Part shown: positions 1-62,112 of the stretch, piece by piece | Layout: each line of letters begins with the position of its first letter | Position numbering within the stretch: position 1 is the first letter of the stretch | Assembly (NCBI GenBank): GCA_031290985.1 | Contig: JARLJW010000008.1 | Span: 1-64,000, forward strand | Length of the DNA: 64,000 nt | Direction: 5' to 3' | Source of the DNA: Verrucomicrobiia bacterium | GTDB lineage: Bacteria; Verrucomicrobiota; Verrucomicrobiia; Limisphaerales; UBA11358 | Made by a program: the position numbers and the translations under genes | The notes under the pieces: model-generated | The model's database searches: none | Told to the model about the DNA's origin: nothing | Seen by the model: only the letters and a program-made list of their open reading frames with translations

Positions 1-651
1 CAGGATACGCTCGGGTGTGTGCAAGATGTGGCGGAGGAGGCCGGGGAGATCAAGGCGGCGTCGCCGGTGGCGGTGGCGGAGCATTTGAGCGTGGTGTTGG
101 CGGCGCGGTATGCGCAGTTGTTGTCGGGCTGGAACGGGGAGATGGATGAGAGGTTTTCGAAGAAGCTGAAGGGGTTGCGGTTGCTGGGCCAGGAGATTGC
201 GGTGATGCGGCGGGAGAATCTGCGGGCGGACCGGTTGGAGCTGCAAAAGACACAGCATCGGGACACGCGGAAGGATAAGTATGTGGCGGCGCTGGAGTAT
301 TGTGTGGCGGAGGGCAAGAAGTGGCCGGAGGTGGAGCAGGCGTTTCGCAAGGCGTTCGTCTTGCTCTTGGCGCATGCGCGGGGTACTGGCGTACGGCCAC
401 AGGGGGACCAGGGGCAGGGGCAAACATCCAACGGCCAACATTCAACATCCAACGTCCAAGCGCCAAGCTCCAGTGAAGCGCCAAAGTGCGAGCCGCACGG
501 GCCAGTGGGTACCGGCGGTACTGGCGGTACTGGCGTACGGCCACCGGGGGACGGGGGGACAAACGGGCAAACATCCAACATTCAACATCCAACATCCAGT
601 GAAGTTCCAAATTCCAATGCGCAGAACGGAAACCAAATTAACAGAAGATAA
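1..651 (+). CDS. Partial CDS (open at left edge): small charged helical protein of unknown function; C-terminal tail made of translated low-complexity repeats
   Basis: ORF is open to base 1. About 120 aa of normal protein (ARYAQLLSGWNGEMDERFSKKLKGLRLLGQEIAVMRRENLRADRLELQ) followed by a repeat-derived tail (GTGVRPQGD, TSNGQHSTSN). Resembles the right-edge ORF at 63755-64000. Confidence 0.55.
   Translation, partial: QDTLGCVQDVAEEAGEIKAASPVAVAEHLSVVLAARYAQLLSGWNGEMDERFSKKLKGLRLLGQEIAVMRRENLRADRLELQKTQHRDTRKDKYVAALEYCVAEGKKWPEVEQAFRKAFVLLLAHARGTGVRPQGDQGQGQTSNGQHSTSNVQAPSSSEAPKCEPHGPVGTGGTGGTGVRPPGDGGTNGQTSNIQHPTSSEVPNSNAQNGNQINRR
383..615 (+). repeat. TACTGGCGTACGGCCACCGGGGGACGGG motif copies with two heptanucleotide-period arrays (CATCCAA CGGCCAA CATTCAA CATCCAA CGTCCAA GCGCCAA GCTCCAG; CATCCAA CATTCAA CATCCAA CATCCAG)
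   Basis: Motif at 383-409 and 527-560; 7-nt periodicity read directly at about 425-473 and 573-600. Confidence 0.85.
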
Positions 652-37149: not shown

Positions 37150-37906
37150 GGACGTGTAAATAACGAATGTCGAATGACGAATGCGGTGTTCAGGTTCGAG
37201 TGTTCAGGTCCGTGCAGGGGACGGGCGCACGGCCGCCGGGGGCAGGTAATGAGTTTGTGAGTTAGTGAATGAGTGAGTTTGGGGTCCTTGCGGACGGCCA
37301 CCGGGGGACGGGTTTGGCGAGCATGAAGGGTTGGCGCAGCGTTTTCAGGCAAGAATGCTTTGGTGGCAGGCGAAAGCGGTGTCGCCGCTGCGCTCTGCCA
37401 CCGCAGTCCAAAACACGCTGGCGCGTGGACGGTACTGGCGTACGGGTGCGAGCCGCACGGGCCACCGGGGAACGGGGGAAATGAGCCCGTTTTGGCCGGT
37501 TGGAATTTTGCAAAAAGACCAATAAAAACGCAAAAATTAAACCAAATTAAACCAAGTTAAGGTACTGGCGTACGGCCACCATGTGACGGGTGATGGGTGA
37601 CCTGTGACGAGGAAAAACCGGGCACTGATGCATATATAGAGATAAGAAAAAACAGATAAGAAAAAGGCCGAAAACATTGGGAATCCAAGTAAATCCAACT
37701 AAATCCAACCAAAAAATAAATCACGAATGAATATAGGAGCCCGAGGCCTGAAACGTGCATTCGAGGACGAGAACGAGGACGAGGACGATCCGCCTCTGGG
37801 AAGGGTCCTTGCGCAAGGCCTTGGGTATCAAGGTCCGTTAGCCCTTGTTAGGCTTTGTTAGCCCTTAGAATTTTTAAAAGTACTGGCGTACGGCCACCAG
37901 ATGCCG
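37150..37906. repeat. Repeat island: TACTGGCGTACGGCCACC copies with 6-, 7-, 10- and 14-nt-period micro-arrays
   Basis: Motif at 37291-37313, 37430-37479, 37561-37582, 37880-37900; AATTAAACCA x2 near 37533; heptads AACGAAT GTCGAAT GACGAAT near 37157 and TGTGACG GGTGATG GGTGACC TGTGACG near 37582; decamers GTTAGCCCTT GTTAGGCTTT GTTAGCCCTT near 37835. Confidence 0.85.
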
Positions 37907-52162: not shown

Positions 52163-52927
52163 ATGAAAGTTCATGCCCCCATCCGCACCACGTCAACGCG
52201 TGCGTTCACGTTGATCGAACTGCTGGTGGTCATCGCCATCATCGCCATTCTGGCCGCCCTGCTCATGCCGGCATTGGGAACCGCCAAGGCCAAGGCAAAA
52301 GCCGCCGGTTGCACCAGCAACCTGCGCCAGCTTGCACTCGGGTGGAGAATGTACGCCGACGATAACATCGGCACTTTGGTGGTGAACCTCCCCCAGCCCA
52401 GCAACAGCACATCGTGGGTGACTTGGAATACCGCAACCAATCCGAATCAGGCAACCGGCATCAGTCAGGGGCGCCTTTTTCCTTATGTCGTCAACCCAAT
52501 GGTCTATGACTGTCCAGCGGACCAGCCGCCCACGAACGGCTTGACCCGGTTGAGCTATTCGATGAATGGCTGGATGGGCAGCCGGGCCATGAACCAATCC
52601 GGGCCGGCCACCGGTAACGAAGCTTACCGCACTTTCGTGCGCGAAGCGGAGATCGCGAACATCGGCGGTGCCTCGCGCTTCTGGGTGATATCCGATGAGG
52701 ATCCCAGCACCTTGGATGACGGCTGGTTCCTGGTGACCATGGATGACAGCCGGCCATTCGCCAGTTTCCCAGGCATCCGGCATCAGCGTGGCGGCGCAAT
52801 GAATTTTGCCGATGGCCACGCCCAAATGTTCCGGCTGCACGATCCCGCCAGCGTGCCCGGCGGCAAGCAAATCAGTTCCACCAACCCCGACTGGCTCCTG
52901 TTCAAGCAGATGACGACTGACCGTTGA
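52163..52927 (+). CDS. Prepilin-type N-terminal methylation domain protein (pseudopilin)
   Basis: [37 protein letters not shown]. Confidence 0.9.
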
Positions 52928-53157
52928 AACATCTTGAAACACCCAACAAAACACAACTTATGAGCCGTCATAATTTTCCCGAACCAAGCCTCCAATCCGG
53001 CCAGCAAATGCTGCGTGTTTCTTGGCTGGTGAATTGCAAGAAATGTCACACAAATGTTGATATTTTAGGATTGCTTATCCTTCAAGGTTCCACTAAACAA
53101 GAAAGCGTCGCTCAGAGAGAAATTTCCAACCGGGTAAACTCCAAGAAACCAAGACTT

Positions 53158-56100
53158 ATGAAACAGCTTTCCACCATTGTGCCCAGGTTCATCGCGGTCG
53201 CTTTTGCCATCGCCACGGCGCTCGCCGCCGCCCCGGCACAAGCGTCCTGCACGCCGCCGCCGGCGGGCATCATTGCGTGGTGGCAGGCTGAGAGCAACGC
53301 CCTAGACATCATCGGCGGCAATAACGGTTCCGTCCCGGCGGGGGTGACTTTTGGCCCCGGCGAGGTTGGCCAAGCCTTCAACTTCGCAGGTAATGCCAAC
53401 ATCACCGTCCCCAACCAGCCGACCCTCAACCCCACCAATCAGTTGACCGTTGAATGCTGGATCTATCCCCGGGCCCGCGCCGCTTTTACCTGGCCCCAAG
53501 ATGTGGTCACCAAAGATGGTGAATGCGTCAACCGGCAATATATCCTCGGGATCGACAACAACAACAGCCAGGGTACCGGGGCGGGTATTTTTGAATCCAC
53601 CGTCTGGCTTGGCAGCGGGGCGGTACCGGTTAGTGGGGCGACGGTCGTGCAGACGAATACCTGGTATCACGTGGCGGTGACCTATGACGGGGCGCTGCTT
53701 AAACTCTATGTCAACGGGGCTGTGGATGGCCAAGTGGCGGTCACCGGCCCGATTGTCACCGGATCCGAACCCGTCCGGCTGGGGGGTGGCGCTCCCAGTG
53801 GCTGCACCCCTTACTTCTTTAATGGGATGCTGGATGAACCCGCCATTTATAACCGCGCCCTCGCCTCCAACGAGATCGCCGCCATCTATCTCGCCGGCTC
53901 CGCAGGCAAATGCACGCCAGCCGCTACCGGCCCGGTCATCACCTTCCAGCCGACCAACCTTACCGTTGTCGCCGGCAGCACGGCCACCTTCAGTGTGACC
54001 GCCACCGGCACCGCCCCGCTCGCTTACCAGTGGAGCCTTAACAATACCAACTTGCCCGGGGCGACCAACGCCACCTTGTTAGTACCCAACGTCCAACTCT
54101 CACAGAATGGCTCCTTTTACTCCGTCCTTGTGTCCAACCCCGCCAATTTCGTCGTCAGTTCCAATGCCTTCCTGACCGTTTCTTCACCAGCGCCGCCGCC
54201 GTCTTGCACGCCGCCGCCGGCAGGCATCGTCGGCTGGTGGCCAGCAGAGAACAACGTGACAGACATCATCGGCGGGGACAATGGCGTATTGTCGGCCAGC
54301 GGTGCCACTTTTGCCGCTGGCGAGGTCGGCAAAGGTTTCCGGCTGGATGGCACCAACGGCTATGTGCAAATCCCTGATTCCGCCGCGCTGCGGCCGACTA
54401 ATGTCACTGTCGAAGCCTGGGTCTGGTTGGATCCGGCAGTGACAGGTTCCGCCGGCGAATACATCATCTTTAAGCGTAATACTAGGACATCGCTTTATGA
54501 GGGTTATTCCCTGGCCCAATATATGGGTCATTTTCAATTCAGCGCCACCCGCAACGGAAACCAAGTGAGCGCAAACTCCACGACCGTGATCCAACGCGGC
54601 ACTTGGTATCATGTGGCGGGAACTTACGATGTCAATACACTGACAGTATACGTCAATGGTGTGGCTGAAGCCTCGGCAGTTGCCGGGTTTGCCTTGGACT
54701 ACGACACGCTCCCTGTCTACTTTGGCACGTCGGGTGAACCGGCACCGAACCGAGGAATGCTAACCGGCGTCATTGATGAGCCATCCATCTACAACCGCGC
54801 GCTCGCTTCCAATGAGATCGCCGCTATCTATCTCGCCGGCGCCGCCGGCAAATGCACGTCGGTCCCGGTCGCGTCTGCGGTTCCCGCCATTTACAACTTC
54901 GCCCCGGCAGCCGGTTTCAACGGAACGGTGGTCACCCTGTCGGGCACCAACTTCAGTTCCACGCTGGCAGCAAACATCGTTTACTTTGGCGCGGTGCGAG
55001 CGACGGTTACTGCCGCCAGCCCGGCCAGCTTGACCGTGACGGTGCCGACGGGCGCAACCTACGCGCCCATCACCGTGACTGTCGGCGGGCTGCAAGCCTG
55101 TTCGAGCCAGTCATTTGAACCGACCTATGCTGGCAGCGGTTCAAATATCACCACCAGCAGCTTTGCGCCGAGTTTCAATCTCAGCACACCCGGCGGCCCC
55201 GGTCAAACCGTGATCGCCGACCTTGACGGAGATGGCAAGCCCGATGTGATCGTGGCCGACGTTTATAACAACACCATTTCGATTTTCCGCAATATCAGCA
55301 CCAACGGAACATTGTCCGCCAATTCATTTGCACCACCGGTCAACCTGCCGGCGACTGCGGGGAGCTATAGTCCAAGCGTCATCGCAGTGGCCGATGTGGA
55401 TGGCGACGGCAAACTGGATATCATCGCCACGGAGTCTGGTGATAATCTGGTCTCGGTTTATCGCAATACCAGCACACCCGGCAATCTCAGTTCCAACTCG
55501 TTTGCGGCCCGGGTGGATTTCCCGACGGGTGTGCAACCACAGGGAGTTGTCGTCCGGGATCTGGATGGAGATGGCCGGCCGGACATGGTGGTGCCCAACA
55601 GCGGCGACGGAACGGTTTCCCTTTTGCAAAACATCGGTGCACCGGGAACGCTGACAACCTATTCGTTTGCGCCGAAAATTGACATCGCCACCGGCGCCGG
55701 TGCCGACCGGGTGGCCGTGGGCGATCTGAACGGCGATGGCCGCCCTGATTTGGCGGTGGCCAACGGCAACGCCGGCACCGTGTCTGTGCTGCAAAATATC
55801 ATCACTTCGCCGGGCAGCTTCACCGCCGGCTCGTTCGCCCCGAAGATCGACCTCGCCGTTCCATCGGGTGCAATCCAAGTGACGATTCTGGATGTGGATG
55901 GTGACGGCAAGCCGGATCTTGCGGTCACGGCCTATTTGCCGCAAACCTTCTCCCTGATTCAAAACCTGAGCACAGGTGGAAATCTAACATCCAATTCCTT
56001 CGCCCCCCGGATCGATTATCCCCTCAATGGCCGTGGCCATACGATTGCGGTCGGTGATATTAACGGTGATGGCAAGCCCGACCTGATCGTGGACACGGAG

Positions 56101-59100
56101 TTAAACAGCCTGCTCAACATTTTCCAAAACGTCAGCACACCTGGTACTTTGAACAACAATTCGCTGGCCAGCCAGGTGGAGCTCGCGACCGGCTGGAACG
56201 CCTGGGGCGTGTCCGTCGGCGATCTGGATGGCGATGGCCGTCCGGACCTCATTTTCGCGAACAGCTATGACAGCACACTTCAAATCTACCAAAACCAGAT
56301 GCCGTTCGCCACGCCACCGCCGCCGCCGCCGGCTTGCACACCCGTTCCCGCCGGCATCGTTGGCTGGTGGCAGGGTGAAGGCAATCCCAATGACCTGATC
56401 AGTTCAAACAACGCCACGCTCTTCGGCGGAGCAACTTACGCGGCCGGCGAGGTCGGCCAGGGGTTCCGCCTCGATGGCACCAACGGGTATGTGCAGATTC
56501 CTGATTCAGCCGCGCTGAAGCCGGCCAATGTCACCGTCGAGGCCTGGGTCTGGCTGGATCCGGCCATCAACACGACCACCAACCAAAGAACGGAATGCAT
56601 CATCTTCAAGAAAAACAGCTGGGACTTCCTTTTTGAAGGCTATGAGCTCGTGAAAGAAAGCCTGCCGAACGGTGACGGCACATATACCGACCACTTTTCC
56701 TTCGTGATCACCAGCAGTGGCAATCAAATCATCACCCACTCCACCACGGCGGTTCAGCGCGGAAAATGGTATCACGTTGCCGGCACCTATGACGGCACCA
56801 CGCAGACGCTGGTAGTCAACGGCGTGGCGGAGGCTTCCGCCTATGCGGGCTTTGCCTTGGACTACGGCACGCGACCGGTTTTCCTCGGCACCTCCGGCCA
56901 GCCGGCTCCGTATCAATCGATGTTCGCGGGTATCATCGATGAGGCTTCCATTTACAACCGCGCCCTCACGACCAATGAACTCGCCGCCATCTACCTCGCC
57001 GGCAGCGCGGGCAAGTGCTACTCACCCGTGGCACCGATGATCACCGCCCAGCCGACCAATCTCACGGTGACCGTGAACAACACGGCGGTGTTCAACGTCA
57101 CGGCCCAAGGCACATCGCCGCTCTATTATCAATGGAGCTACAATGGCACCAACATTCTGGGCGCGACCAATTCTTCGCTCACGTTGAACAACATTTCGCC
57201 CGCGTTCGCCGGAAATTATTCCGTGCTGGTTTCAAACTTTGTCGGGACGGTGACCAGTTCGAACGCCACGCTCACCGTCCTCGTTCCGGCGGTGCCGCCG
57301 TCGATCCTTGCGCAGACGCCCAGCCAGATCGTGCTGCTCGGCAGCGCGGCGACCTTTACCGTCACGGCGGGCGGCTCCGCCCCGTTGAGCTATTTCTGGG
57401 AGCGCAACAACGTGCCGATCCCCGGCGCGACCAATGCCAGCTACACCCTGCCCGGCGCGCAGCTCGCTGATTCCGGCAGCAAGTTCAGCTGCCTGGTCAC
57501 CAATGCTTACGGTTTCGCCGCCAGTACCAATGCCACGCTCAAGGTCATTGACACCGTCTCGAACGACCTGTGCAGCGGCGCGGTGGTCATCACGAGTTAC
57601 AGCTACACCAACGTCCAGTCCACCGTGAAAGCCAGTTCCTACGGCGATCCCCTGCCCGACTGCATCGATGGCTTTGGCAATGGTGTGTGGTACCAGTTCA
57701 CCCCGCCCGTCAGCGGACTGCTGCTCGCGGATACGCTCGGCAGTGACTTTGACACCGGCCTGGCCGTTTACACCGGGAGTTGCGGTTCATTCACCGAGGT
57801 CGCGTGCAACGATGATTACGACGGCGTGACTTCGGCCCTCAGCCTCCCGACGACGGCCGGCACAACGTACTATCTCCTCATTGGCGGCTATGACGGGCAT
57901 GTGGGCAACCTGGTGTTCCATCTGAACTACCAGACCCCGCCCGCATTTGACGTGCAGCCCACGAATATTTCCGTGGTCGTCAGCAGCAATGCCACCTTCA
58001 CCACGGCCATCTCCGGCACGCAGCCCATCAGCGCCCAGTGGTATTTCAACAATACGCCGCTCGTCGATGGCGGACGCATCAGCGGTTCTACGAACCCGGT
58101 CTTGAACATCGTCAATGTGAACCCGAATGACGGTGGAAATTATTTCATCATCGCCTCGAACTTCCTCGGCGTGACCACCAGTTCCGTGGCGGTGCTGACC
58201 CCGGTCATCCTGCCGCCGGTCATCCTCGTGCCGCCGGTCAGCCAGTCCATCGTCACCGGCGCGAACGTCACGTTCACCACCGTGGTCTATGGCACGCCGC
58301 CATACACCTATCAGTGGAGCTTGAACGGCAACCCGCTGGCCGATGACGGTGTGCGCATTTTCGGTTCCAGCACGGGCAGCCTGACCGTTTCCAACCTCAC
58401 CACGGCGGACGCGGGCAGTTACTCGCTGACCGCCACCAACGTCTCCGGTTCTGCCAGTGCATCCGCCACGCTGGTGGTGATGGTGCCGCCGGTCATCACC
58501 GTGCCGCCGGTTGGCCGCTCTGTGCCACCGGGTCTGCCGACGATTTTCAACGCCTCGGTCGCTGGCATTCCGACGCCGGTTTACCAGTGGCAATTGAGCG
58601 GCACCAATCTTCCCGGCGCGACCGGCAGCAGCTATACGAATCCGGCGGTGGGCATCAATGACCTTGGATATTATCAGGTCATCGCCAGTAACGTGGTTGG
58701 CAGCGTGACGAGCAGTGTGGCGCAACTGACCTTCGGCCCGGTGGCCGCGTGGGGCAGAAACCTGAACAACGAATGCCTGCCGCCACCCGGCTTGAGCAAC
58801 GTGGTTGGGGTCGCGGGCGTTAATATGGCCAGCATCGCGATTCATGGAGATGGCTCACTCGCGTTCTGGGGCGGCAACTCGGGCACAAATGCTCCCGCCA
58901 GTGCAACGAACGTTGTGCAACTGGCGCTCACCGGCGGTACCGGCAATTATGCGTTGCGCAGTGACGGCACGGTGGTTGGCTGGACCGGTTATCCGCCGCC
59001 GGTGTTGAGCAATGTTGTTTCCGTGGCGGCGGGAAATCTCTTTGCGCTGGCTTTGCGCACGGAAGGCACGGTCGTAGGCTGGGGCAGCGGTGCCGCCAGT

Positions 59101-62100
59101 GTCGTGCCCGCCGGTCTGTCGCGGGTGGTGGCAATTTCTTGCGGCAACACGCACTCGCTCGCGTTGCGGAGCAATGGCACCGTCGTGACGTGGGGCAGCG
59201 GCACGGGCACGAATCTGCCTCCTGGCATCAGCAACATCGTCGCCATCGCTGCGGGCTTTACGCACAGCCTTGCGTTGCGGGCCAACGGCACCGTCGTCGC
59301 TTGGGGCAGCGGCACGGGCACGAACGTACCGGCGGGATTGACCAACGTTACGGCAATTTCCACCGCCACCATGCCATATCAGTCGCTGGATCTGGCGTTG
59401 CGGGCCAACGGCACAGTCGTCGCGTGGGGCGACATTTCTTTCGGTGAAACCAATCCGCCGGCGGCGTTGAGCAATCTCCTTTCTGTCGCCATTGCCGCCG
59501 TGCCCAATCACGGACTGGCGCTTGTAAATGATGGCAGCCCGCAGATTCTCCAGCCGCCCGTCGGTCTCACCGCCTACACCGGGCGTGACGTAACATTTCG
59601 CGGCACCGCCGTGGGCGCGGCACCGCTGGCATACCAATGGCTGCTGAACGGTACGAACATCCCCAATGCGACGAACACCAGCCTCATCCTGTCCAACATC
59701 CAGCTGGCCAACGCCGGCAATTACCAGTTGTTGGTCAGCAACTCCATCAACACGGCCCTCAGCCTGCCCGCGCCCGTCACGGTCATCAGCAACAGCGCCC
59801 CGTTCTTCTTAAGCCAGACGACGGTTTCCGCTACCAATATCTATCAAGCTGGCAGGGTCACCTTCAACAGCGGCACGGTGCTCGGCAGCGGGCCGCTGCG
59901 TTATCAGTGGTTCTTCTCGGCCACGAATAGAAATTACGTGCCGGTGCCGGCGGCGACCAATGACACGCTCACCTTCGACCCGGCGCTGGCGGTGCAGACG
60001 GGAAATTATTACATCGCCATCAGTAATCTGGTCGGTGGCGTCACCAGCGCGCCGGTCGGCATCCGCGTCTTGTTCGCCCGCGCCTGGGGCTATCAGGCCG
60101 TCAGCAATCCGCCGGTCAATGTGACCAATTGCATCGCCCTCGCCACGGGCGGTGGTTCGGCCAGTTTAAACGGCCATTATCTCGCGCTGGGGTCGGATGG
60201 CAAAGTCACGGCGTGGTCCAGCGGTTCAACGTTTTATGGGGAAACGAACGTCTCCGCCTTAAGCAATTCCATCGTCACCGCCATCGCCGCCGGCTATCAA
60301 GAATCGCTCGCCCTCAAATCGGACGGAACCGTTTACGCCTGGGGTTATGGCGGCTACGGCCAGACCAATCCGCCGGTTGGCTTGAGCGGTGTCACGGCCA
60401 TTTCCGTTGGCGGTTACCATGACCTTGCCTTGAAGGCGGATGGTACGGTCGTCGGCTGGGGTGATGTTCTGCAGGCACCGAATTACGGGCAGGCGACCAA
60501 TAATCCCGCCGCCACCAATGTTGTCGCCATTGCCGCCGGCCAGCAACACAGCCTTGCGTTGCGCGCCGATGGCAGCGTGGTGGCCTGGGGCTATGGCTCG
60601 GATGGGTCAACCTTGATTCCCTTTGGCGCCACCAATATCGTTGCCATTGCTGCTGGCAATGGCTTCAGCGCGGCCTTGCGCGCCAACGGTACGGTGGTGG
60701 AATGGGGGGGTCTGGGCAATTACCCCGTGCCGCTCAACCTGAGCAATGTCGTCGCCATTTCCGGCTCCGGCACGCATTTGACGGCGCTCAAGAATGACGG
60801 CACCGTCGTCACTTGGGGCTATCAGTATGCGGGCTTGGCCTCGAACAACCTCCCCGCCGACTTGACTAATGTCGTCGGCCTGGCCAGCGGCGGCGATCAT
60901 GACATCGCCCTGTTTGGCACGCGCGCGCCGGTCTTCACCGTGCAACCGTGGAACCGCGCGGTGATCGTCTCCAAATCCGCCTACACCACCATCACGCTGG
61001 CCGCCAAATGCGCCGGGGTCCAACCCGTGCGTTACCAATGGTTGTTGAACGGCACGAATTATCCCAATGCCACCAATGATACCTTGACCCTGCGCAATGA
61101 TGGCCTTGGAGGCCCCGGCCAGTTCCCGGCGGGCGCCTACCAGCTCGTGGCCAGCAACGCGTATGGCGTGACCTTCAGCAAGCCTGCCAAAGTCACCATC
61201 GTGATTCCGCTCGGCGAAGCTGTCGATGCCACCAACCTCGTCTGGACTTCCACCGGTTCCACCCCGTGGTATGGCCAGACCAACATCACTCATGACGGCC
61301 TCGACGCCGCGCGCAGCGGCGGCATTGGCGGCTCGCAGGAAACCATCCTGCAAACCACGCTCGCCACAAACTTCTCCGGCTTTGCCACCTTCTGGTGGAA
61401 GGTTTCCTCGGAACAATTCTTCGACACCTTGGAATTCCGCGTGAACGGAACCGTGCAGGCCACCATCTCGGGCGAGGTGGACTGGACCCAGGCCAGCATC
61501 CCCATCCCCGCGGGCACCAACCTGCTGCAATGGCGCTATTCCAAGGACGCCTCATTTGATTCCGGCCTCGATGCCGGGTTCGTGGATCAGTTCGCCTTTG
61601 TCGCCGGTCCACCCATCATCACCAACCAGCCCAACTCGGTGGTCGTCAATGCCGGGGCCAACGTGACCTTGTCCGTCGCCGCCGTCGGCGCCCCGCAATT
61701 AAAATACCAATGGTGGAAGGATGGCAACGCCGTCGGCGGCAACAGCCCCGTCCTGGCGATGAACAACGTGAGTCGCGCCAACGCCGGAAATTATTGCGTC
61801 ACCGTCACCAACCTTGCCGGCAGCGTGACCAGCAGCACCGCCGCAGTACGCGTCGTCGCCCCGCAATTGCTCGGCTCGCCGCAATTGCTCCCCGACGGCT
61901 CGTTGCAGTTGATCGCGACCGATGCCAATGGTGGCACGCTGACGGACGCCGACCTCCCCAATTTCGAGGCCCAGGCCAGCTCCGACTTGGTGAACTGGAC
62001 CACGCTGCCTGATGCCTTGAGCCTCACGAACGGCAGGTTGCAGTTGCAAGACACCTCGCGGACGAATTTCACGACGCGCTTCTACCGCATCATTGAGCAC

Positions 62101-62112
62101 CCCGCGCCCTGA
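53158..62112 (+). CDS. Giant secreted multidomain protein: three LamG, IPT/TIG, FG-GAP/VCBS block, Ig-like repeats, PPC-like domain, two RCC1-like blocks
   Basis: Signal peptide MKQLSTIVPRFIAVAFAIATALAAAPAQA; LamG at ~53250, ~54200, ~56330; DLDGDGKPDVIVAD-type repeats ~55160-56310; LALRANGTVVAWGSGTGTN-type repeats ~58735-59530 and ~60070-60920. Confidence 0.9.
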   Translation: MKQLSTIVPRFIAVAFAIATALAAAPAQASCTPPPAGIIAWWQAESNALDIIGGNNGSVPAGVTFGPGEVGQAFNFAGNANITVPNQPTLNPTNQLTVECWIYPRARAAFTWPQDVVTKDGECVNRQYILGIDNNNSQGTGAGIFESTVWLGSGAVPVSGATVVQTNTWYHVAVTYDGALLKLYVNGAVDGQVAVTGPIVTGSEPVRLGGGAPSGCTPYFFNGMLDEPAIYNRALASNEIAAIYLAGSAGKCTPAATGPVITFQPTNLTVVAGSTATFSVTATGTAPLAYQWSLNNTNLPGATNATLLVPNVQLSQNGSFYSVLVSNPANFVVSSNAFLTVSSPAPPPSCTPPPAGIVGWWPAENNVTDIIGGDNGVLSASGATFAAGEVGKGFRLDGTNGYVQIPDSAALRPTNVTVEAWVWLDPAVTGSAGEYIIFKRNTRTSLYEGYSLAQYMGHFQFSATRNGNQVSANSTTVIQRGTWYHVAGTYDVNTLTVYVNGVAEASAVAGFALDYDTLPVYFGTSGEPAPNRGMLTGVIDEPSIYNRALASNEIAAIYLAGAAGKCTSVPVASAVPAIYNFAPAAGFNGTVVTLSGTNFSSTLAANIVYFGAVRATVTAASPASLTVTVPTGATYAPITVTVGGLQACSSQSFEPTYAGSGSNITTSSFAPSFNLSTPGGPGQTVIADLDGDGKPDVIVADVYNNTISIFRNISTNGTLSANSFAPPVNLPATAGSYSPSVIAVADVDGDGKLDIIATESGDNLVSVYRNTSTPGNLSSNSFAARVDFPTGVQPQGVVVRDLDGDGRPDMVVPNSGDGTVSLLQNIGAPGTLTTYSFAPKIDIATGAGADRVAVGDLNGDGRPDLAVANGNAGTVSVLQNIITSPGSFTAGSFAPKIDLAVPSGAIQVTILDVDGDGKPDLAVTAYLPQTFSLIQNLSTGGNLTSNSFAPRIDYPLNGRGHTIAVGDINGDGKPDLIVDTELNSLLNIFQNVSTPGTLNNNSLASQVELATGWNAWGVSVGDLDGDGRPDLIFANSYDSTLQIYQNQMPFATPPPPPPACTPVPAGIVGWWQGEGNPNDLISSNNATLFGGATYAAGEVGQGFRLDGTNGYVQIPDSAALKPANVTVEAWVWLDPAINTTTNQRTECIIFKKNSWDFLFEGYELVKESLPNGDGTYTDHFSFVITSSGNQIITHSTTAVQRGKWYHVAGTYDGTTQTLVVNGVAEASAYAGFALDYGTRPVFLGTSGQPAPYQSMFAGIIDEASIYNRALTTNELAAIYLAGSAGKCYSPVAPMITAQPTNLTVTVNNTAVFNVTAQGTSPLYYQWSYNGTNILGATNSSLTLNNISPAFAGNYSVLVSNFVGTVTSSNATLTVLVPAVPPSILAQTPSQIVLLGSAATFTVTAGGSAPLSYFWERNNVPIPGATNASYTLPGAQLADSGSKFSCLVTNAYGFAASTNATLKVIDTVSNDLCSGAVVITSYSYTNVQSTVKASSYGDPLPDCIDGFGNGVWYQFTPPVSGLLLADTLGSDFDTGLAVYTGSCGSFTEVACNDDYDGVTSALSLPTTAGTTYYLLIGGYDGHVGNLVFHLNYQTPPAFDVQPTNISVVVSSNATFTTAISGTQPISAQWYFNNTPLVDGGRISGSTNPVLNIVNVNPNDGGNYFIIASNFLGVTTSSVAVLTPVILPPVILVPPVSQSIVTGANVTFTTVVYGTPPYTYQWSLNGNPLADDGVRIFGSSTGSLTVSNLTTADAGSYSLTATNVSGSASASATLVVMVPPVITVPPVGRSVPPGLPTIFNASVAGIPTPVYQWQLSGTNLPGATGSSYTNPAVGINDLGYYQVIASNVVGSVTSSVAQLTFGPVAAWGRNLNNECLPPPGLSNVVGVAGVNMASIAIHGDGSLAFWGGNSGTNAPASATNVVQLALTGGTGNYALRSDGTVVGWTGYPPPVLSNVVSVAAGNLFALALRTEGTVVGWGSGAASVVPAGLSRVVAISCGNTHSLALRSNGTVVTWGSGTGTNLPPGISNIVAIAAGFTHSLALRANGTVVAWGSGTGTNVPAGLTNVTAISTATMPYQSLDLALRANGTVVAWGDISFGETNPPAALSNLLSVAIAAVPNHGLALVNDGSPQILQPPVGLTAYTGRDVTFRGTAVGAAPLAYQWLLNGTNIPNATNTSLILSNIQLANAGNYQLLVSNSINTALSLPAPVTVISNSAPFFLSQTTVSATNIYQAGRVTFNSGTVLGSGPLRYQWFFSATNRNYVPVPAATNDTLTFDPALAVQTGNYYIAISNLVGGVTSAPVGIRVLFARAWGYQAVSNPPVNVTNCIALATGGGSASLNGHYLALGSDGKVTAWSSGSTFYGETNVSALSNSIVTAIAAGYQESLALKSDGTVYAWGYGGYGQTNPPVGLSGVTAISVGGYHDLALKADGTVVGWGDVLQAPNYGQATNNPAATNVVAIAAGQQHSLALRADGSVVAWGYGSDGSTLIPFGATNIVAIAAGNGFSAALRANGTVVEWGGLGNYPVPLNLSNVVAISGSGTHLTALKNDGTVVTWGYQYAGLASNNLPADLTNVVGLASGGDHDIALFGTRAPVFTVQPWNRAVIVSKSAYTTITLAAKCAGVQPVRYQWLLNGTNYPNATNDTLTLRNDGLGGPGQFPAGAYQLVASNAYGVTFSKPAKVTIVIPLGEAVDATNLVWTSTGSTPWYGQTNITHDGLDAARSGGIGGSQETILQTTLATNFSGFATFWWKVSSEQFFDTLEFRVNGTVQATISGEVDWTQASIPIPAGTNLLQWRYSKDASFDSGLDAGFVDQFAFVAGPPIITNQPNSVVVNAGANVTLSVAAVGAPQLKYQWWKDGNAVGGNSPVLAMNNVSRANAGNYCVTVTNLAGSVTSSTAAVRVVAPQLLGSPQLLPDGSLQLIATDANGGTLTDADLPNFEAQASSDLVNWTTLPDALSLTNGRLQLQDTSRTNFTTRFYRIIEHPAP

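Follow-up and report, generated by a model that had tools for sequence, protein, structure and literature searches.

The stretch of DNA analysed here (the window, 64,000 nt) begins inside a gene whose reading frame passes abruptly from an ordinary charged helical protein into copies of a short motif and 7-nt arrays. A sequence-only reading of the window had reported the same order of gene, motif and heptads at the right edge and had proposed a lineage-expanded gene family with a linked array, either as a repeat-targeted mobile unit or as a variable-tail system. The locus raises two questions: what the gene is, and whether the repeats behind it belong to it.

The edge genes and the repeats behind them

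The window corresponds to contig C111 (64,052 bp) of a 113-contig, 5.98-Mb assembly, so that the window has a contig end on either side. Both edges are assembly breaks, which is consistent with repeats. A very large reading frame of 3062 aa (52924–62112, + strand) was also observed in the window.

The left-edge reading frame (1–651, + strand) encodes 216 aa, is open at its 5' end and has no start codon inside the window. Residues 1–128 (nt 1–384, + strand) are a conserved charged helical core which is kept in other copies. They come from an orphan gene resembling the Mu gp27 small terminase (TerS-like), of whose conserved core they form the 3' part. The 5' end of this gene is lost at the contig end; approximately 73 N-terminal residues are missing relative to the family profile described below. 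The remaining 89 aa (385–651, + strand) are a run-on C-terminal tail from dispersed repeats which is not conserved in the family. On the + strand the motif TACTGGCGTACGGCCACAGGGGGAC is found at 384–408, degenerate 7-nt units of the CCAACAT/CCAACGT type at 421–471, a second motif copy, TACTGGCGTACGGCCACCGGGGGAC, at 528–552 and a clean 7-nt array of AACATCC, the sole strict period-7 array of the window, at 567–600. The earlier description of about 120 residues of charged helical protein followed by a repeat-derived tail is thus confirmed. Beyond the gene lies a non-coding mosaic of dispersed repeats (652–1460, + strand) with up to 92% identity to the C86 copy discussed below, and a third motif copy is found inside it at 764–788. 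Searching the window reading frame against Pfam and PADLOC gave no match and against NCBIfam none near the cut-off, and a search of the left 1.5 kb of the window for known RNA found none.

A second family member lies at the right contig end (63755–64000, − strand) and extends to contig base 64052, with a profile E-value of 1.1e-28. It has CACGGCCACC motifs in its last codons, terminating in two copies, and the 7-nt units which follow are too degenerate for the array detector. As regards the order reported for the right edge, the family gene and the motifs were found there but the heptads fall below array detection.

By inspection, most copies in the source genome have no fixed 3' end. Frames running past the core enter apparent antisense of neighbouring genes, other repeats or a motif/heptad mosaic, and within the source genome a motif/heptad tail is common to only the left-edge locus and the locus on contig C86. 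Beyond the gene these two loci share 92% identity over 371 bp of non-coding sequence, and their coding cores share 75%. The same mosaic was found on C63, C35, C74 and C96 with no adjoining family gene as far as those contigs extend. The 89-aa tail is a run-on translation into dispersed repeats and not a designed variable tail. That the tails of heptads and motifs act as variable C-termini with a function has next to no probability. One part of the proposal stands, namely that the frames are open and the tails differ between copies; however, on inspection several of the tails resemble other repeats or antisense translations of adjacent genes, some copies end immediately past the core, heptads behind family genes are at background density, and the non-coding repeat is better conserved than the gene in the two copies which share the tail.

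The heptads themselves are real. Background array rates were drawn from a 400-kb sample of the source genome, in which five period-7 arrays were found compared to none in Markov shuffles, thus the left-edge 7-nt array is beyond chance. Near family genes the density of period-7 arrays was 0.34/kb in the 400 bp upstream (7 arrays) and 0.14/kb far away. In the 400 bp downstream it was 0.159/kb, the same as in random non-coding DNA of the source genome (0.159/kb), and none of 64 family stop codons had an adjoining period-7 array. With downstream density at background, no array at any of the 64 stop codons and a tail of this kind at two loci only, the supposed link between the 3' end of the gene and the heptads fails, the arrays being equally frequent elsewhere. 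In this genome the heptad arrays are genuine intergenic repeats of an ordinary kind, without specificity for the 3' end of the gene. Nor is the motif tied to the family gene as had been supposed, since it associates with arrays instead. The motif GTACTGGCGTACGGCCACC is part of a composite: among 31 distinct sites, a period-10 array lies just upstream in nine, and a period-7 array lies just downstream of the TACTGGCGTACGGCCACC motif at eight, with other periods giving 0–4.

A chromosomal family of small-terminase origin

The full-length copy on C86 is 398 aa long and starts MTRTGKIARLP. Taken alone, it shows a weak resemblance to small terminases (PHROG 426, E = 0.007; Pfam Mu Gp27, E = 1.3). 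The family gives a clearer result. The PHROG terminase small subunit (PHROG 426) matches 29 of 46 aligned family members, and members in a phage context match TerS with E-values to 2e-10 and Pfam Gp27 with 5.7e-6, just below its cut-off. A family profile built from nine copies matches, across the phylum, rare single-copy genes with E-values down to 1e-31. On reading the neighbourhoods of distant homologues, eight of those examined directly precede a terminase large subunit and most of these are then followed by a Mu-type portal; the loci tested with PHROG and Pfam gave E-values of 3e-62 for the portal, 1e-22 for Terminase_6C and 2e-10 for TerS. The core has an N-terminal helix-turn-helix-like region and a helical remainder, and the predicted monomer structure is all-helical and confident (mean pLDDT 88). 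Fold searches with this predicted monomer and a sequence search of solved structures gave nothing significant, and comparison of the phage-context TerS with named phage records gave no match.

Judged by these sequence comparisons, the left-edge reading frame is a truncated member of a multi-copy chromosomal family whose core is homologous to Mu gp27-type TerS, and the family very probably consists of TerS-derived orphan genes. TerS is a DNA-binding protein which marks the start of phage DNA packaging, and small terminases determine which DNA enters phage particles. The left-edge copy derives from TerS and may act like one but, as packaging neighbours are absent, we do not class it as a functioning terminase of a phage. 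Shorter TerS-like reading frames without the N-terminal helix-turn-helix region were also observed, at L057 (C63) and L058 (C90) in the source genome and at L115 and L117 in G012. Several times these lie just upstream of a full gene, and in the source genome they end in PMTEEELKACVDKVDEIFGLK-type sequence. Upstream of the C86 copy (L002, 2280–2920) there are repeated, dispersed units with CATGTCGCCGCTACATG / CATGTAGCCGCTACATG near-palindromes, which are also found near L161.

The profile gave 25 matches (about 20 loci) in the source genome, 13 in G008, 7 in G032 and 6 in G012. Most relatives in the genus gave none. The proposed lineage expansion of the gene family is thus borne out. A genome scan found 63 chromosomal loci, all in Verrucomicrobiota assemblies (one labelled Akkermansia), and a viral scan found 37 loci. 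A large terminase is present inside 36 of the 37 viral loci versus none of the 63 chromosomal ones. In a tree of 99 proteins, based on 147 columns and of correspondingly limited resolution, the chromosomal copies form a single clade (support 100/98) with lineage-specific expansions. Recent copies in CAIQKM are under purifying selection, with dN/dS of 0.04–0.28 in the closest subgroup and 0.28–0.48 in the other subgroup. That every copy is the remnant of an independent, decayed Mu-like prophage is highly improbable on these results. The gene is clearly phage-derived, as such remnants would require, but a large terminase or portal is kept at none of the 63 chromosomal loci, the chromosomal copies are one clade separate from the phage copies and the recent ones are under purifying selection. 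The absence of a large terminase from all 63 loci and the single chromosomal clade led us to reject this explanation.

Near-identical copies are located at contig ends in the source genome and in G008. The TerS-like family may account for some of the contig breaks which repeats cause in these Verrucomicrobiota assemblies.

Decamer arrays and a palindrome beside the genes

Comparison of the copies in CAIQKM, an independent genome, revealed (AAATCAAACC)n directly after the stop codon. In a pattern count covering all loci, from −60 to +150 around stop codons, 30 arrays were on the same strand as the gene versus two on the opposite strand, and the density far away was 0.008/kb. CAIQKM and the source genome suggested the period of 10, which was afterwards looked for at all loci with a lag scan independent of any sequence pattern. 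This unbiased scan placed period-10 arrays next to a start or stop codon in 34 of the 86 distinct loci, from 18 of 33 genomes, the genome count being the safer of the two because copies within one genome are not independent. The maximum for any other period was seven loci in five genomes, for period 7, and periods 11–13 were found in at most one. As a control, ordinary genes of the source genome gave a period-10 array in 1 of 244. None of the 37 phage TerS genes had decamers beside it. Given that the phage relatives have no adjoining decamers, the decamer array was not inherited from the phage gene.

The 3' decamer arrays begin between −30 and +42 relative to the stop codon, mostly near 0, and six of ten 5' arrays end no more than 16 nt from the start codon. 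In several genomes the first decamer itself provides the stop codon, for example GAATCAAGG-TGA. The unit sequences vary between genomes (AAATCAAACC, AAATCCGACT, GAATCAAGGT and GAATTACGGT) and the period is constant at 10. There was no array at the threshold used in 52 of the 86 loci, and the array nearest to the left-edge copy, AAATTAAACCAAATTAAAGC (1016–1047, + strand, the strand of the gene), lies 365 bp past its stop codon. The earlier proposal of a linked array thus survives in altered form: the heptads are not linked to the family, but a family-linked array exists with a period of 10, abutting the start or stop codon. We suggest tentatively that the decamers might be binding sites of the TerS-like protein.

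Decamers also occur away from the genes. In the window, three differing decamer arrays and two motif copies are clustered in intergenic DNA at 37531–37898 (+ strand) without a TerS gene nearby. They comprise a gene-less composite of decamers AAATTAAACC followed by GTACTGGCGTACGGCCACC at 37531–37580, a decamer array GAATCCAAGTAAATCCAACTAAATCCAACC of the type found in gene-less palindrome elements at 37678–37715, and decamers GTTAGCCCTT followed by GTACTGGCGTACGGCCACC at 37837–37898.

Many TerS-like copies carry a palindrome, TTGGACNGCNNNTGTCCAA. In the source genome TTGGACAGCCTTTGTCCAA lies some tens of bp upstream of several copies or of the shorter TerS-like reading frame which precedes them. 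It is found upstream of copies in CAIQKM, CAIJGS, CAIZWI and CAIQWB too (11 of 63 loci). The source genome contains 31 exact copies of TTGGACAGCCTTTGTCCAA and 10 near matches, with none in the reversed control, and the 31 identical copies indicate that the palindrome has also been amplified. Relatives contain TTGGACNGCNNNTGTCCAA 0–5 times per genome, and there it precedes a dinB-type polymerase (IMS, E = 9e-35) and an integron-like integrase. The palindrome or a close variant precedes recA in 3 of 27 genomes, the source genome being one of these. A plain transposon end was set aside as an explanation, since the palindrome precedes recA, the dinB-type polymerase and the integrase in relatives, and a genus-wide recA operator was rejected since only 3 of 27 recA genes have it. 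The palindrome is probably a LexA-type DNA-damage operator, and we regard an operator of SOS type as likely. The model for the LexA DNA-binding domain (PF01726) had no match in the source genome while the same model matched in 10 of 14 control genomes. The recA-associated palindrome is present in the source genome despite no canonical LexA DNA-binding domain match. The repressor may be a divergent one.

A strong period-10 array follows the palindrome at about 18 of the 30 sites examined here, usually with no TerS gene. Palindromes beside recA, RNase HI and a small number of further host genes have no such downstream array. A conserved small reading frame (MTTNQQLELGFNG...QWWFARMREVVNQA type), possibly an uncharacterised SOS gene, was seen in several genomes just downstream of the palindrome (L149, L227, L228, L229 and L233). 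At L162 (G000 C98, about 20.5–24 kb), a unit of ∼100–150 bp starting ATGAGACACGA follows the palindrome in about three copies separated by decamer arrays, resembling a small cassette array.

These observations could be read as a domesticated regulator or nucleoid-type protein, TerS-derived and serving the host, which would bind phased A/T-rich arrays and regulate its own gene and nearby SOS genes, its copies being ordinary paralogues. Purifying selection, the association with a probable damage operator and the position of the arrays against coding boundaries all agree with this. However, the family is patchy, being missing from most relatives in the same genus and varying in presence between relatives, many copies are truncated or internally deleted, and near-identical copies break the assembly at contig ends. 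We consider a domesticated regulator quite unlikely.

Spread of the units and comparison with known systems

The reading we prefer, with a probability of about 0.55, is that the TerS gene is dispersed and probably selfish, is accompanied by phased repeats resembling a pac site, and would be damage-induced and spread as a module. DNA damage would induce the TerS-like gene through the palindrome, and the TerS-like protein would treat the helically phased decamers next to its gene as a pac-like site to which it binds. Selfish spread could result either from a helper phage terminase being drawn to the decamer site or from recombination between arrays. A search of the source genome for Portal_Mu found no Mu-type portal gene, so any helper phage must come from outside. 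A narrower form, suggested by analogy with packaging systems and in itself unlikely, is a minimal packaging parasite consisting of a damage-inducible TerS gene and its own phased pac-like site and nothing else. With such a parasite, damage or phage infection would lead to a Mu-type packaging motor being drawn to host DNA and to transduction of the unit with its flanks, leaving behind many copies and gene-less derivatives.

The boundaries of the copies bear on how the units move. Four CAIQKM copies have a common sharp left end, GGGGTCAGTCAATG, with no defined right end or target duplication seen. Among CAIQKM copies which are 93–97% identical, homology often stops at the start codon and within the decamers past the stop codon. 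One locus holds the TerS gene in CAIQKM but lacks it in G008; G008 retains the right flank, apparently from its sequence an HflX-type GTPase gene, and has a rearranged left flank. With the left flank differing, the locus shows variation in presence or absence of the gene rather than a true empty site, and neither a clean empty site nor a target duplication was found. Gene-less units retain the palindrome and the decamers. A cassette mobilised in trans would explain some of this. The decamers, perhaps with the palindrome, would be ends for a transposase or recombinase encoded elsewhere, the TerS-like protein would be a passenger or accessory DNA-binding factor and the gene-less derivatives would be MITE-like. 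The palindrome and decamers kept in gene-less units, the divergence of near-identical copies at the start codon and in the post-stop decamers, the shared sharp left end and the locus lacking the gene in G008 all favour it. On the other hand, the units showed neither terminal inverted repeats nor a target duplication and no transposase was seen linked to them, a decamer sequence which varies among genomes at a fixed period of 10 would be odd for a transposase site, and gene conversion between old copies could equally create the homology boundaries. We consider such a cassette rather unlikely.

If the selfish TerS reading is true, a clade of TerS outside phages, multiplied, under a probable DNA-damage switch and bearing arrays, would exploit phage packaging in a new manner; alternatively the same clade and arrays, if mobilised as a cassette, would be a new kind of mobile cassette. 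As the array sequence varies by genome and the period is fixed, the family also offers a testable system for recognition of DNA by TerS. The literature searched contained no account of decamer arrays or of orphan TerS families in Verrucomicrobiota.

The repeats have partial counterparts elsewhere. Cyanobacterial heptanucleotide STRR are intergenic 7-nt tandem arrays dispersed through the genome. The heptads here are likewise intergenic and dispersed, but differ in phylum, in sequence and in their placement after TACTGGCGTACGGCCACC at 8 of 31 sites. MITE- or REP/BIME-like repeats are similar in having numerous short non-coding copies, some with the palindrome, beside fuller gene-bearing ones; however, no inverted-repeat ends or transposase were found here, and in relatives the palindrome is operator-like before DNA-damage genes.

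Mu gp27-type TerS (Pfam PF11985, PHROG 426) shares the homologous core, and its phage relatives precede a large terminase and a Mu portal. The chromosomal genes, in contrast, lack packaging neighbours, fall in a clade of their own, occur in multiple copies and have decamers which are absent from the phage copies. The pac analogy is drawn from the pac repeats of SPP1, the ring model of SF6 TerS and the redirection of packaging by SaPI TerS. The TerS of SaPIs redirects packaging through recognition of a pac site (PMC6092414). The TerS modules of PICIs and SaPIs resemble the present family in that TerS has been captured outside a phage genome; they differ in that the chromosomal TerS-like copies are dispersed and many and any helper is hypothetical, and inspection around the source-genome copies recognised no integrase, replication, capsid or regulator genes. 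We do not class the family as a PICI. In SPP1, pac consists of direct repeats at the terS gene, spanning the terS promoters and start, and the SF6 TerS ring of helix-turn-helix domains has been proposed to select intrinsically bent DNA (PMC4737164). Direct repeats at a small terminase gene are thus common to SPP1/SF6 pac and to the family described here, with the difference that the arrays here have a period of exactly 10 nt and form a putative site at the start or stop of a chromosomal gene.
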